NCBI GenBank assembly: GCA_002030045.1
Contig: LQBI01000001.1
Coordinates: 124,001-188,000, forward strand
DNA from: Candidatus Aegiribacteria sp. MLS_C
GTDB lineage: Bacteria; Fermentibacterota; Fermentibacteria; Fermentibacterales; JCC-6
Reading direction: 5' to 3'
Length of the DNA stretch: 64,000 nt
Below the pieces are notes generated by a model that saw nothing but the letters and a program-made list of their open reading frames with translations, was not told where the DNA came from and did not search any database. This document shows, piece after piece, positions 21,933 to 36,399 of the stretch; the stretch's first letter is position 1; the number at the start of each line of letters is the position of its first letter. The position numbers were made by a program, and so were the translations under genes.

Positions 21933-22319
21933 ATGCGTAGAATTCTTGCTGTCCTCAGTATCGTGGGTCTTGCCGTCATGGCATGCGGTGGCGGCGGCGG
22001 CGGTGCCAACAGCCCGGAGGATGCCGTCAATGGTATGTTCAATGCCCTGAAGTCAGGCGATCTCGATGCCATGGCCCAGTACATGCCCGCTGACGAGCGC
22101 GCCGAGTTCGAGAACATGTCCGATGAAGAGAAGCAGATGGCCGAAGGCATGCTCGCCATGTTCGGCGAAATAGACGTCAAGGTCCTGGGTTCCGAGATCG
22201 AGGGTGAAGAGGCTGTAGTCACCATCGAGTTAACCTTCATGGGCGAGACCGAGCAGGACGAGGTCGAGCTTATGATGGAAGACGGCAGATGGGTCGTCAC
22301 CGATGGAGGCATGTTCTAG
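21933..22319 (+). CDS. DUF4878-like lipoprotein
   Basis: A 128-residue lipoprotein: hydrophobic signal, lipobox VMAC (Cys about 18), then a run of glycines. The domain follows with SPEDAVNGMFNALKSGD, typical of the DUF4878/lumazine-binding-like fold, and ends VELMMEDGRWVV. It is probably membrane-anchored facing the periplasm. GGAGG precedes the ATG at a good distance. The last 21 bp of this gene are duplicated 1.7 kb downstream, with its terminator. Confidence 0.8.
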   Translation: MRRILAVLSIVGLAVMACGGGGGGANSPEDAVNGMFNALKSGDLDAMAQYMPADERAEFENMSDEEKQMAEGMLAMFGEIDVKVLGSEIEGEEAVVTIELTFMGETEQDEVELMMEDGRWVVTDGGMF

Positions 22320-22599
22320 TCCTTCGAGGGAATTGCTGCGGGAGTCTCCGTTTCGGAGGCTCCCGTTCTTTTTACTCCCCGCAGGCCCTCTCGACTATCC
22401 TCCGCTCACTCCTCATCCCGGCATTCCGAACGACGAACGTCGGCAGGTGGCGGCGGTTTTTCCCGGTTCGCCCCGCCAGGCCGGTCCTCCATGGCGCAGA
22501 GCAATTGAACGTATGCTCATCAGGGACGGCGGAACCCGTCGGGGTCACATTCACCAGACGACTGCCGATCGCAGGGATGGGTCCTCAGTGGACTGGCGG
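22299..22599 (+). repeat. direct repeat, copy A (about 300 bp)
   Basis: This segment recurs at 24010-24311 in the same orientation. By eye I count about 13 mismatches and one single-base indel, so about 95% identity. It includes the last 21 bp of the lipoprotein gene, its terminator and about 225 bp of apparently non-coding DNA. It ends in CTGGCGG, which in copy B is the 3' edge (CCA end) of tRNA-Ser. Confidence 0.9.
22339..22373 (+). terminator. intrinsic terminator of the DUF4878 lipoprotein gene
   Basis: CGGGAGTCTCCG and CGGAGGCTCCCG form a 12-bp stem with one T-G wobble around a TTT loop, followed by TTCTTTTT. It starts 20 bp after the stop codon. Confidence 0.85.
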
Positions 22600-23037
22600 G
22601 CCATCTGTCCAAAAGTTGGAAACAATTCTACACTTGGTTACGTGATATTCCCCCGTTTGAGCGTGAGGAGGAGAAATCTCAACTCCTCTTCTCTGATCAG
22701 GCTGGTAGATGATATGAGCACGGAAGCGTGAAAACAACTATAGAACTACCTTAAGATGCCTGGTGAGCTTGGAAACTATATTATTATTATATAATTACAA
22801 CAGTAAATTTTTTTGAAGATAGTATCTTACCTCCCCGATTATCCATGACCAGTGCAAGCAGAAGAAGCTAAGAAGCCTCTCTCGTAATAAAAAAATGAAC
22901 ATATTCATAATTATTACCCCAATATGCCATTTAATATGTTATAAATAGAACGGAGCCTAAATGACACACCCATAGCTAAGGGTACCAGAAGGTCTACATG
23001 CTCGAGCTGGAGTAGCTGTTCCAAAGCCCTATGATCA
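22600..23037. other. AT-rich non-coding stretch
   Basis: No gene recognised. From about 22735 to 22935 the sequence is strikingly AT-rich (runs such as ATTATTATTATATAAT), unlike the GC-rich surroundings. A 17-codon frame starting at 22897 has no ribosome binding site and is not called. The patch may contain promoters or be foreign DNA. Confidence 0.6.
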
Positions 23038-23067
23038 TTGACATGGGGTAATACCGCCATTAGTAAT
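23038..23067 (+). promoter_or_regulatory. possible promoter for the secreted-protein gene at 23084
   Basis: A perfect TTGACA (23038-23043) is followed 17 bp later by TAGTAAT (23061-23067). The predicted start would leave a leader of only about 10 nt before ATG 23084, which is short. Confidence 0.42.
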
Positions 23068-23083
23068 GACAAGGGTTATAGAA

Positions 23084-23704
23084 ATGAAGCTAATGATCGT
23101 TTGTCTTCTTTCAGCGGCGGTGAGCACCTGCTTCCCGCAGGAGCCTGACACTCTCTTCTTCGACGACTTCTCCGAACCGGGCTCGAATCCCTGGGTATAC
23201 GGACCTCTGTGGACCTTCTACGGAGAGTCGATGAGAATGTACGACCAGCAGGGCACCAGCTCGGGTGAGACCCTGTTCGCCTCTGATACGCTGGTTTCAC
23301 CTCCGGTATGCATCCCGGACGGGATGGACAGTCTGCTGGTGAGCGTGCCGATGTCTCTGTATGCCAAGTGCACCACCATCAATATCGGGAGCATGTACAA
23401 CCTCGAGCGGATATCCGTAATCAACGGGACCGGCACACATGACATCTGGGAGTTCTACGCGACTGACGTATCATACCTTTATGTCAGCTGGGAGGACACT
23501 GTAGATATGCCCGTCCCCGCCTCCGCCTGGGTTCCGAGTGATTCTCTCCGGGTCCGGTTCATCGGCGAGTCATACTGTCATCCCCTATACTGGGACGGTT
23601 ACCTGGAGATAGAATGGATACTGGACAGCGTGGCTCTGCTGGGATTCGGCTGCCAGGAACTCACGAACTCTACCTGGGGCAGTATCAAGACCTTGCTGCA
23701 GTAG
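23084..23704 (+). CDS. secreted protein of unknown function
   Basis: A 206-residue protein with a signal peptide (MKLMIVCLLSAAVSTCFP). The mature part starts with TLFFDDFSEPG, a phrase common at the start of extracellular beta-sandwich proteins in FCB-type bacteria, and is rich in aromatic and acidic residues. ATG 23084 is preferred to 23066 because it puts the signal peptide at the N-terminus. It lies between the two 300-bp repeats. Its end overlaps the convergent minus-strand gene by 20 bp. Confidence 0.6.
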   Translation: MKLMIVCLLSAAVSTCFPQEPDTLFFDDFSEPGSNPWVYGPLWTFYGESMRMYDQQGTSSGETLFASDTLVSPPVCIPDGMDSLLVSVPMSLYAKCTTINIGSMYNLERISVINGTGTHDIWEFYATDVSYLYVSWEDTVDMPVPASAWVPSDSLRVRFIGESYCHPLYWDGYLEIEWILDSVALLGFGCQELTNSTWGSIKTLLQ

Positions 23705-23996
23705 ATTCCTCATTGGCGGACGTTCCGATGCCATCAGTCAAGCCTTCCAATAAGATCTTCCGCTTCTTGTTGCCCTCGTATTCCATGAAGCTGTCGGCGA
23801 AGTAATCGGTCGCGGATGTCTCAAGGTCAACACGGTCTATTCGGATCACCAGTTCAATGGTCCCGCTCTCCTCATCGTAGTAGCCAGAATGCAGGACCTC
23901 CGCATGGCAGACCAGGTCAACCAGTGTGGAAGCGCCTGCCGCGGATGCGAGGAGCAGAGCAAGAGCAGCTGCGAGTGGCAGGGATAACGGTTTCAT
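23685..23996 (-). CDS. small secreted protein of unknown function
   Basis: A 103-residue minus-strand protein. A strong signal peptide (MKPLSLPLAAALALLLASA) is cut near AGA-ST, leaving a short acidic mature chain with no recognised family. The ATG at 23996 has a GGAG ribosome binding site; the longer frame would start inside the duplicated repeat and is rejected. It faces the upstream gene convergently, with a 20-bp overlap of the coding ends. It might be a shortened remnant of a longer secreted protein. Confidence 0.55.
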   Translation of the reverse strand: MKPLSLPLAAALALLLASAAGASTLVDLVCHAEVLHSGYYDEESGTIELVIRIDRVDLETSATDYFADSFMEYEGNKKRKILLEGLTDGIGTSANEESTAARS

Positions 23997-24009
23997 CTCC
24001 AGCTCCCTT

Positions 24010-24311
24010 ACCGATGGAGGCATGTTCTAGTCCTTCGAGGGAATTGCTGCGGGAGTCTCCGTTTCGGAGGCTCCCGTTCTTTTTACTCCCCCGCAGGTCC
24101 TCTCGACTATCCTCCGCTCACTCCTCATCCCGGTATTCCGAACGACGAACACCGGCAGGTGGCGGCGGTTTTTCCCGGTTCGCCCCGCCAGGCCGGTCAT
24201 CCATGGCGCATGGCAATTGAAAGGATGCTCATCAGGGACGGCGGAACCCGTCGGGGTCACCTTCACCAGACGACTGCCGATCGCAGGGATGGGTCCTTAA
24301 TGGGCTGGCGG
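24010..24311 (+). repeat. direct repeat, copy B (about 300 bp)
   Basis: Second copy of the segment at 22299-22599, about 95% identical by eye. Its left end carries an orphan fragment of the lipoprotein gene's 3' end plus terminator. Its right end runs into the CCA end and first acceptor bases of tRNA-Ser at 24306-24311. Confidence 0.9.
24050..24084 (+). terminator. duplicated intrinsic terminator
   Basis: Exact copy of the stem-loop and T-run at 22339-22373. Here it could end plus-strand transcripts from the secreted-protein gene at 23084-23704. Confidence 0.75.
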
Positions 24312-24391
24312 AGGACCGGGGATTCGAACCCCGAAGGGCGTAAACCCGGCGGATTTCAAATCCGCTGCCTTACCAGTTAGACTAGTCCTCC
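24306..24391 (-). tRNA. tRNA-Ser (anticodon UGA)
   Basis: On the minus strand a full class II cloverleaf is readable. The acceptor stem is GGAGGAC/GTCCTCC. The anticodon stem GCGGA/TCCGC holds a TTTGAAA loop with anticodon TGA. A long variable arm and a T-arm CGGGG-TTCGAAT-CCCCG follow. Discriminator G and the CCA end are encoded. The long variable arm and TGA anticodon identify serine. Confidence 0.92.
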
Positions 24392-34452: not shown

Positions 34453-36399
34453 ATGTCTGATACTTTCACTGGCGAAACCTACAACACGCTGTGCAAGGAT
34501 GCGGAGGATTACCTGTCGAAGGGATCCCCTGAACAGGCTCGCGAACTCCTGCAGAAAGCCGTCTCCCTGATCGGTACCAGACCTGCGGCGAGAAGTCTCC
34601 TGGCGGATACATGCATGACTATGGAACTCTGGTCCGAGGCCCGGGACCAGCTGGAGATCCTGATAACTCTCGACGAGGGCAATACAGGCAATCATTTCAA
34701 ACTGGCCCAGGTACTCGAAGAGCTTGGTGAGTACCAGCTGGCTGCGGACAACTACCGGGTCGTGCTGGACGGAAAGCCCGACCATCACGGAGCCAAGGTG
34801 GCCCTGAAGAGGATCGCCTCCCGGGACCGTGATTCCGGCATGGGCGTCAACCTTGCGGACGTGTTCAGGTCGCATTCAGAAGAGCCCGAAGAGGGTCCTG
34901 CGGAAGATGAACAGGCCGGGGAGGCCGAGGATCAGGGCTTCAGGGAAGGTATGCAGATCTACCCCGATGTGCCCTCGGACGACATCTTCGCGGAATCGGA
35001 GGATGAGGAGGAAGACGACAGCGTCGACGCCCTGCTGAAGAACATCGGTCTTACGGGAGCCTCGGTTTCCGATAACGATGACGAGGACGTATCGAGGCTT
35101 CTGGAGAACATAGGGGTGTCGACTTCAACTACGCTTGCCTCTGCATTCGCTGAAGCCGGGGAAACCGGACAGGAGGATTCTGACGGGGGAGACGAGTCAA
35201 CCGTTGCCGAGAAGAAGAAGGTGGTCAGCCTCGATGACATCTTCGGCACATCTGCCAGGGAAGAGGAACCGGCGGCAGCGGAGGCCGGTGAGGAAGCGGC
35301 TGTACACGTCCCCGCCGAGGAGGAGGAACCGGTGGCAGCGGAGGCCGGGGAGGAAGCGGTTGTACACGTCCCCGCCGAGGAGGAGGAACCAGCGGCAGCG
35401 GAGGCCGGGGAGGAAGCGGTTGTCCAGGCTCATGCCGGTGGAGTGGCGGAAGAGGAAGAGGTAGAGGAAGAGGTAGAGGAAGAGATTGAGGAATCCGCTC
35501 CTGGCTCAGGCGCAGGAAAGACCCTCGAAGACATGTTCAGCGCATCCGCCGGCGAGCAGGAAGAGGAAGAAACCTCTTCCGTTGAAGCCGGGCCTGCGGA
35601 GCCGGAAGAAGTCGCCGCCGCCGAGCCGGAGATCGAGGAGGCAGCCGCTTCTTCCGTCGAAGAGGTGCTTGCGGAGCCGGAAGAGGCCGCCGCCGAGCCG
35701 GGGATCGAGGAGATAGCCGCTTCTTCCGTCGAAGAGGTGCTTGCGGAGCCGGAAGAGGCCGCCGCCGAGCCGGAGATCGAGGAGGTAGCCGCTTCTTCCG
35801 TCGAAGAGGTGCTTGCGGAGCCGGAAGAGGCCGCCGCCGAGCCGGGGATCGAGGAACCATCCGCCGGGGGATTTCTTCTTCTAAGGAACGATGCCGAGTA
35901 TACCATGGATACCTGGTCACCGGAGTCGGGGCTGCTGACGGTGAACATGGCCTCCGGTACCCTGGACATGGAAGCCTCCAGGCTGACGGTGGTGGAAAAG
36001 ACCCTTGAAATGAAGCTTCTCGATGAAGGGACCTTCAGATTATCGGGACAGGGAACGTTCCTCATCAACTGTGGGAGAGAGGCTCCCCTGAGACTGAACC
36101 TCAGGGATGACATGATAATTCGCAGGGATCTGGTGATACTCCATACCGGGGAGATTACGCTCGAACTGCTGGACGTACCTGGCAACGAGGACTTCTACGT
36201 GGTTAAGAACACGGCTCACGAGAGCGTGGTTCTCAGGGCCGATGATCCTGTCAGGGTCATTCTCCTGGGACAGAACAGGAGGGTTTTCCTGGTCAGGACA
36301 TCCGCCATCGCAGCCGCTGACCCGGACATCGTCTTCAGCGGTTCGAAGGAAGGTTACACAGAGGTGTCCGGTTCCGGCAAGCTCTACCTTATCGAGTGA
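34453..36399 (+). CDS. TPR protein with acidic repeats and C-terminal beta domain
   Basis: A 648-residue cytoplasmic-looking protein. Residues 1-130 contain tetratricopeptide repeats (AEDYLSKGSPEQARELLQKA, LEELGEYQLAADNYRVVL). A very acidic Ala/Glu/Pro region of about 340 residues follows, with tandem repeats at 35261-35440 and 35631-35846. Last comes a 175-residue all-beta domain (GGFLLLRNDAEYTMD ... SGSGKLYLIE) resembling the AIM24 fold. That resemblance is tentative. ATG 34453 has GGGGAGG upstream. It probably assembles complexes; function unknown. Confidence 0.65.
   Translation: MSDTFTGETYNTLCKDAEDYLSKGSPEQARELLQKAVSLIGTRPAARSLLADTCMTMELWSEARDQLEILITLDEGNTGNHFKLAQVLEELGEYQLAADNYRVVLDGKPDHHGAKVALKRIASRDRDSGMGVNLADVFRSHSEEPEEGPAEDEQAGEAEDQGFREGMQIYPDVPSDDIFAESEDEEEDDSVDALLKNIGLTGASVSDNDDEDVSRLLENIGVSTSTTLASAFAEAGETGQEDSDGGDESTVAEKKKVVSLDDIFGTSAREEEPAAAEAGEEAAVHVPAEEEEPVAAEAGEEAVVHVPAEEEEPAAAEAGEEAVVQAHAGGVAEEEEVEEEVEEEIEESAPGSGAGKTLEDMFSASAGEQEEEETSSVEAGPAEPEEVAAAEPEIEEAAASSVEEVLAEPEEAAAEPGIEEIAASSVEEVLAEPEEAAAEPEIEEVAASSVEEVLAEPEEAAAEPGIEEPSAGGFLLLRNDAEYTMDTWSPESGLLTVNMASGTLDMEASRLTVVEKTLEMKLLDEGTFRLSGQGTFLINCGREAPLRLNLRDDMIIRRDLVILHTGEITLELLDVPGNEDFYVVKNTAHESVVLRADDPVRVILLGQNRRVFLVRTSAIAAADPDIVFSGSKEGYTEVSGSGKLYLIE
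35261..35440 (+). repeat. three 60-bp tandem repeats inside the TPR protein gene
   Basis: Three in-phase units encode 20 residues each around EEEEPxAAEAGEEAVVHVPA. Copies differ by only a few bases, so they expanded recently. Confidence 0.85.
35631..35846 (+). repeat. three 72-bp tandem repeats inside the TPR protein gene
   Basis: Three exact-period units starting at 35631, 35703 and 35775, with a partial fourth at 35847. Each encodes 24 residues containing AASSVEEVLAEPEEAAAEP. The near identity of units suggests slippage-prone DNA. Confidence 0.88.

Follow-up and report, generated by a model that had tools for sequence, protein, structure and literature searches.

Introduction

Transfer RNA genes are the classic entry points for large genomic islands that bring their own integrase. 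Sequences found behind tRNA genes also include the rtT repeats that follow Escherichia coli tyrT (Rfam RF00391), units of which each end in some 19–20 nt of the tRNA 3′ end. In Dehalococcoides, ssrA islands are inserted in the T-loop with a 20-bp repeat, and some of them have no integration genes (PMC3146451); cis-mobilizable elements (CIMEs) are a further described class (PMC5704250). In E. coli, 56 of 60 clones obtained with linear DNA, which had been trimmed and recircularised before it integrated, were duplications; 14 of these, when sequenced, spanned 109–950 bp, and a single crossover of circularised DNA accounts for the duplications (Amarir-Bouhram et al., 2011; PMC3240628). Here we describe a locus of Candidatus Aegiribacteria sp. 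MLS_C (Fermentibacterota) in which DNA absent from related genomes lies between two direct copies of the host region next to tRNA-Ser(UGA), and compare it with these systems.

A duplicated intergenic region beside tRNA-Ser(UGA)

The window (the whole 64,000-nt stretch of DNA analysed) contains a pair of directly repeated segments, R and R′ (Table 1), that are identical in 288 of 302 alignment columns (95.4%) and spaced 1,711 bp apart. The copies differ by 13 substitutions and one 1-bp indel, all 14 differences being located beyond the first 78 bp, and the E value of the match (~2e-135) excludes chance. At its left edge the repeat holds the last 21 bp of the lipoprotein gene, followed in both copies by the terminator, while the right copy stops 6 bp inside tRNA-Ser(UGA); R is nearly the exact convergent intergenic span between the two genes. 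The first-pass annotation had described direct repeats of about 300 bp at about 95% identity, made up of a lipoprotein gene end, its terminator and some 225 bp more, and the alignment confirms this. It had also placed the end of the right copy on the CCA edge of tRNA-Ser(UGA); the boundary lies slightly beyond that edge, within the tRNA. The tRNA-tail copy at the far end of R is weak on its own because it comprises only 6 bp.

A search for further 300-bp copies, as had been proposed, found no third copy of the 302-column repeat in the 2.98-Mb genome, which rules out a dispersed repeat family. A structured RNA in the repeat was likewise rejected, with no Rfam family besides the tRNA and folding z-scores of −0.5 and +0.3 against shuffled sequences. 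Elsewhere in the window (35259–35855), the gene of a 660-aa TPR-like protein, which has long acidic Glu/Ala repeats, contains coding minisatellites built of 60- and 72-bp units.

Table 1. Features of the tRNA-Ser(UGA) locus (window positions) and the comparable repeat arrangements at three tRNA genes, including this one (positions relative to the tRNA end).
Feature	Position	Strand	Remarks
DUF4878 lipoprotein gene, 128 aa	21933..22319	+	Intact host gene at left edge; conserved and syntenic in sister species
Left repeat copy (R)	22299..22599		Lipoprotein 3′ end, terminator, spacer and 6 bp of tRNA-Ser 3′ end
Intrinsic terminator of lipoprotein gene, left copy	22338..22366	+	
Truncated copy of tRNA-Ser 3′ end	22594..22599	-	CCGCCA on the - strand
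Inserted non-repeated DNA	22600..24009		1,410 bp; GC 0.50; missing from relatives and the rest of the genome
AT-rich non-coding stretch of insert	22700..23065		GC down to 0.29
Gene 1, complete	23087..23704	+	205-aa secreted protein ending STWGSIKTLLQ; distant homologues in relatives
Gene 2, secreted-protein gene fragment	23685..23996	-	3′ end missing; right repeat cuts upstream region at ribosome-binding site
Probable internal joint, gene 1 end/truncated gene 2	23705..23732		Gene 2 homology ends at residue 88
Right repeat copy (R′)	24010..24311		Runs 6 bp into tRNA-Ser
Terminator within right copy	24049..24077		
tRNA-Ser(UGA), intact	24306..24391	-	
Repeat at tRNA-Ser(UGA), window	-6 to +296		95.4% identity; cargo 1.41 kb
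Repeat at tRNA-Gln	-8 to +128		87% identity; cargo 2.46 kb
Repeat at tRNA-Ser(CGA)	-20 to +69		89% identity; cargo 2.29 kb

The inserted DNA

The 1.4 kb of AT-rich DNA reported between the repeats proved to be 1,410 bp long with a GC content of 50%, as against 60% for the window, reaching its minimum (0.29) at 22775–22924. It has no counterpart elsewhere in the genome and no DNA match in plasmids or phages; an origin from either was ruled out on this ground and because gene 1 has no relative in viral contigs. Two convergent genes for small secreted proteins had been annotated here, of which the left one looks complete whereas the right one is a fragment. The gene 1 protein carries a signal peptide (judged by eye), and its C-terminus, STWGSIKTLLQ, resembles the end of a distant homologue, STWGAIKATF. 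The single good homologue of gene 2, a 145-aa protein in G051, continues for about 57 residues further, and the homology ends at residue 88 on the side of the window protein, as gene 2 runs into the end of gene 1; a joint probably lies there. At its other end, gene 2 has lost to the right repeat all upstream DNA from 13 bp before its start codon. Consisting of one complete gene and one fragment, the insert is therefore a patchwork.

Neither insert ORF has a Pfam match, and no integrase, transfer gene, transposase or recombinase was found in the insert, in line with the earlier remark that no integrase is visible. A transposon or insertion sequence was rejected, since the insert ends have no inverted repeats, there is no transposase and the duplication amounts to 302 bp. 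As a separate observation, contig C22 of G000 (6,084 bp) encodes a tyrosine recombinase and a primase-helicase, and probably represents a binned fragment of a phage or plasmid.

The site in related genomes

The comparison with relatives suggested at first pass revealed an empty site in 12 sister species of the same genus (G001, G003, G004, G005, G006, G007, G008, G011, G012, G015, G016 and G018), in which the lipoprotein gene is followed by 54–184 bp and then by tRNA-Ser(UGA), with the cargo absent. Wherever contigs reach, the gene order PHP – g21316 – lipoprotein – tRNA-Ser – CYTH (– g25093) is kept, and the syntenic empty site therefore identifies the locus as an insertion accompanied by a duplication. 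An ancient fixed arrangement, with both repeats in all relatives, was tested and is rejected by these empty sites. The 225-bp spacer half of the repeat has no match in the 12 genomes, so it is either particular to this species or diverged past recognition. In G005, the DUF4878 lipoprotein gene beside tRNA-Ser(UGA) is present as a diverged tandem pair.

A thirteenth relative, G010, contains an independent 3.1-kb insert at tRNA-Ser(UGA). This site was joined from contigs C31 (after the lipoprotein gene) and C71 (before the tRNA), which overlap by 127 identical bases, and reads lipoprotein – terminator – palindromic repeat – TGGCGGAGGACCG – 3.1 kb – intact tRNA-Ser, where TGGCGGAGGACCG corresponds to 13 bp of the tRNA-Ser 3′ end. 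The two genes of this insert are for exported proteins, one parallel-beta-helix-like with a Por secretion tail, the other a beta-propeller protein whose N-terminus is lipoprotein-like; there is no integrase.

The same layout at other tRNA genes

Direct repeats of 50–600 bp, at least 80% identical and 0.5–6 kb apart, were surveyed in 823 kb of the genome, taken as stretches. Only three such repeats were found, each with its start within the 3′ end of a tRNA gene (Ser-UGA, Ser-CGA and Gln; Table 1), in a sample biased toward tRNA-linked repeats by the picking of about half of the stretches around tRNAs; the 464 kb not picked in this way (the window, C24 and C13) yielded no further case. Applied to G010 and G015, the same criteria picked up additional spaced repeats, mostly away from tRNAs, and the exclusive association with tRNAs is therefore a property of this genome's sample. 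The cargo at tRNA-Gln encodes a Por-tail protein and an AAA/DUF4143 ATPase, and that at tRNA-Ser(CGA) a single, probably exported, 653-aa carboxypeptidase-regulatory-domain protein. The tRNA link claimed for the window thus holds and recurs, at three tRNA 3′ ends of this genome. Given the same layout at two other tRNAs, tRNA ends look like recurrent entry points for small gene cargos with no visible integrase.

Copies of tRNA tails and their hairpin body

Exact copies of tRNA 3′ ends (at least 11 nt) were sought over 8 kb on each side of 145 tRNA genes from four genomes, with the tRNAs themselves masked. Eleven copies were detected downstream, none upstream and none on the antisense downstream strand, compared with a random expectation of about 0.2 over 950 kb if equal base frequencies are assumed. 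Five copies, two in this genome (Ser-CGA and Gln) and three in G015 (Arg-UCU, Ser-GCU and Ser-UGA), have a length of exactly 20 nt and extend from the T-loop to CCA; they lie at the edges of the Gln and Ser-CGA inserts and of three short G015 units. In front of these copies is a related body of ~65 nt (core GGTGAGTTTACnCTGAGC...GAGTCGAAG). A strict version of the core has three occurrences in 1.78 Mb, all of them abutting a tRNA tail. By eye, one hairpin of the body has apparent paired changes (TTCGGTC/GACCGAA, TTCAGTC/GACTGAA and TTTGATC/GATCAAA); no convincing Rfam match was obtained for the body.

Units of 85–139 bp behind tRNA genes consist of this ~65-nt hairpin body and then an exact 20-nt copy of the 3′ end of their own tRNA, each unit at a different tRNA bearing that tRNA's tail. 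Behind tRNA-Ser(UGA) there are two tandem 85-bp units in G013 and one 88-bp unit in G005. Short tandem units that terminate in a portion of the tRNA 3′ end were seen at tRNA-Gly and tRNA-Val of the present genome (94 and 44 bp). In G010, 12-nt tail copies occur 2.6 kb downstream of tRNA-Asn, with a Por-tail-like beta-propeller protein as cargo, and 5.2 kb downstream of tRNA-Met, beyond Fic-like, oxidoreductase and nucleotidyltransferase-like genes (all assigned by eye). We found nothing on this pattern in the literature on tRNA-tail repeats or Fermentibacteria tRNAs.

Origin of the insert

We prefer, and give an even chance to, the explanation that a small circle entered at the 3′ boundary of tRNA-Ser(UGA) through a single crossover and so produced an insertion-duplication. 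Such a circle, of about 1.7 kb, would have combined a copy of the host intergenic region between the lipoprotein gene and the tRNA, including the 3′ end of the former and the last 6 bp of the latter, with 1.4 kb of foreign DNA made up of a whole secreted-protein gene and a piece of another. One crossover within the shared 302 bp would then produce the order lipoprotein – R – cargo – R′ – tRNA, leaving both host genes and their 3′ contexts unbroken, with R′ derived from a strain about 5% (4.6%) different. Direct copies of a host segment flank the insert, as expected of an insertion-duplication. Beyond the direct observations (the repeats, the empty site, the foreign composition, the truncated cargo gene and the recurrence at two other tRNAs), we infer the circle, its crossover and the origin of R′ in another strain. 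The genome contains a ComEC gene, so that DNA uptake is possible, and with copies 4.6% different the event is either old or involved a diverged strain. The first joining of R′ to the foreign DNA needs a separate illegitimate event.

The crossover could have been carried out either by RecA on the 302 bp or by a recombinase of tRNA ends acting in trans. Homologous recombination by RecA alone gives no account of repeat edges located at −6, −8 and −20 inside tRNA 3′ ends. These edges can be read in two ways, as the work of a recombinase on tRNA ends or as the outcome of selection, the latter because only a duplication running from 3′ end to 3′ end leaves both genes intact.

A role for a recombinase, since lost or acting in trans, that placed the cargo at the tRNA-Ser 3′ end is also conceivable if somewhat unlikely; the locus would then be a CIME-like relic and the left tail a decayed distal attachment site. 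The 13-bp tail copy bounding the G010 insert at the same tRNA speaks for this, as do the exact 20-nt tails of the Gln and Ser-CGA inserts and the three G015 units, which parallel the Dehalococcoides ssrA islands (PMC3146451). However, the tail copy in the window has only 6 bp, and the similarity extends over 296 bp of native flank including the lipoprotein 3′ end, for which recombination at attachment sites alone is insufficient. Moreover, neither the insert nor the window encodes a recombinase; all four tyrosine recombinases of the genome map to other contigs, that of C24 lying behind an apparent topA, as for a housekeeping Xer. We consider it distinctly improbable that the intergenic region was tandemly duplicated within the cell by template switching or end joining, with capture of filler DNA and selection for the product that spared the neighbours. 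R matches the convergent intergenic region almost exactly, the sole span that can be duplicated without gene damage, and the filler is a patchwork, both of which would fit; but the filler has no source elsewhere in this genome, Ku is absent (ruling out non-homologous end joining), and three tRNA 3′ ends in 823 kb are not expected of random events. That unrelated sequence was joined at the repeat by assembly or binning is barely credible: the assembly has 35 contigs and is apparently metagenome-derived, as its named relatives are, and assemblers fail at repeats, yet the copies are only 300 bp long and differ at 14 positions, the contig extends over 271 kb, and similar structures occur on other contigs and in independent assemblies.

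A single crossover of a small circle had already been put forward at first pass, together with a tandem duplication and the idea of a minimal non-autonomous cargo unit. The empty site and the repeat anatomy lend the circle partial support, and the tRNA link is real. That the unit still moves is in doubt, given a cargo gene already reduced to a fragment and repeat copies that are 4.6% apart, and excision today is uncertain. Plain tandem duplication fails, as it leaves 1.4 kb of unrelated DNA unexplained. Overall, the insert, at a recurrent hot spot, is probably old and has partly decayed.

Wider significance

Taken alone the locus is modest; its interest lies in the recurrence of such inserts at tRNA ends. 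Inserts here measure 1.4–5 kb, are integrase-free and often carry genes for exported proteins, and the three cases in one genome duplicate the tRNA's own flank in a way that leaves both neighbouring genes undamaged. If general, this would offer an uncultured phylum a simple route for swapping surface and secreted proteins. It is tempting, though speculative and on the whole unlikely, to see in these inserts a dispersed cassette system of Fermentibacterota, in which small integrase-less cargos, mostly of exported proteins, would use the tRNA tail and downstream flank as an attachment module recognised by one recombinase in trans; the window would be a decayed member. At several sites, the module of such cassettes would be the ~65-nt hairpin body followed by the exact 20-nt tRNA tail. 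The 20-nt tail units offer a way to trace the responsible enzyme, should one exist.

Comparison with known systems

The 85-bp units of sister species resemble rtT repeats in being placed behind a tRNA and in ending with its 3′ tail, and the tandem units at tRNA-Gly and tRNA-Val of this genome resemble those of E. coli tyrT; rtT repeats, however, have no cargo genes, and the window itself has no such unit. With the Dehalococcoides ssrA islands, the inserts share low-GC cargo beside an RNA gene whose 3′ 20 bp are repeated at the far edge, tandem units, and units lacking integration genes (PMC3146451). Those islands repeat 20 bp only and many encode serine recombinases, whereas the repeat of the window comprises 296 bp of flank besides 6 bp of tRNA and its insert has no recombinase; a 20-nt tail is present at the Gln and Ser-CGA sites of this genome. 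The 20-nt tails agree with the established T-loop mode of integration, of which these islands are one example, and with the CIME concept.

Like CIMEs (PMC5704250), the insert is bounded by repeats at a tRNA 3′ end, has no integrase or transfer genes (the tyrosine recombinases of the genome being on other contigs) and abuts an intact tRNA 3′ end, which the right repeat enters. It is much smaller, and functional attachment sites or a descent from an ICE or IME would be putative. In place of an attachment core of about 15–20 bp, its far edge has the 6 bp CCGCCA, compared with tails of 13 bp in G010 and 20 bp at Gln and Ser-CGA, and because 6 bp falls short of an attachment repeat we do not file the window as a CIME.

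Foreign DNA between direct copies of a host segment is also what Amarir-Bouhram et al. (2011; PMC3240628) obtained, with duplications of 109–950 bp. Theirs was an engineered plasmid at lacZ, whereas here the insert is natural, its repeat ends in a tRNA 3′ end and its layout recurs at other tRNAs. On this analysis, the window would work like an insertion-duplication at a tRNA-linked hot spot.
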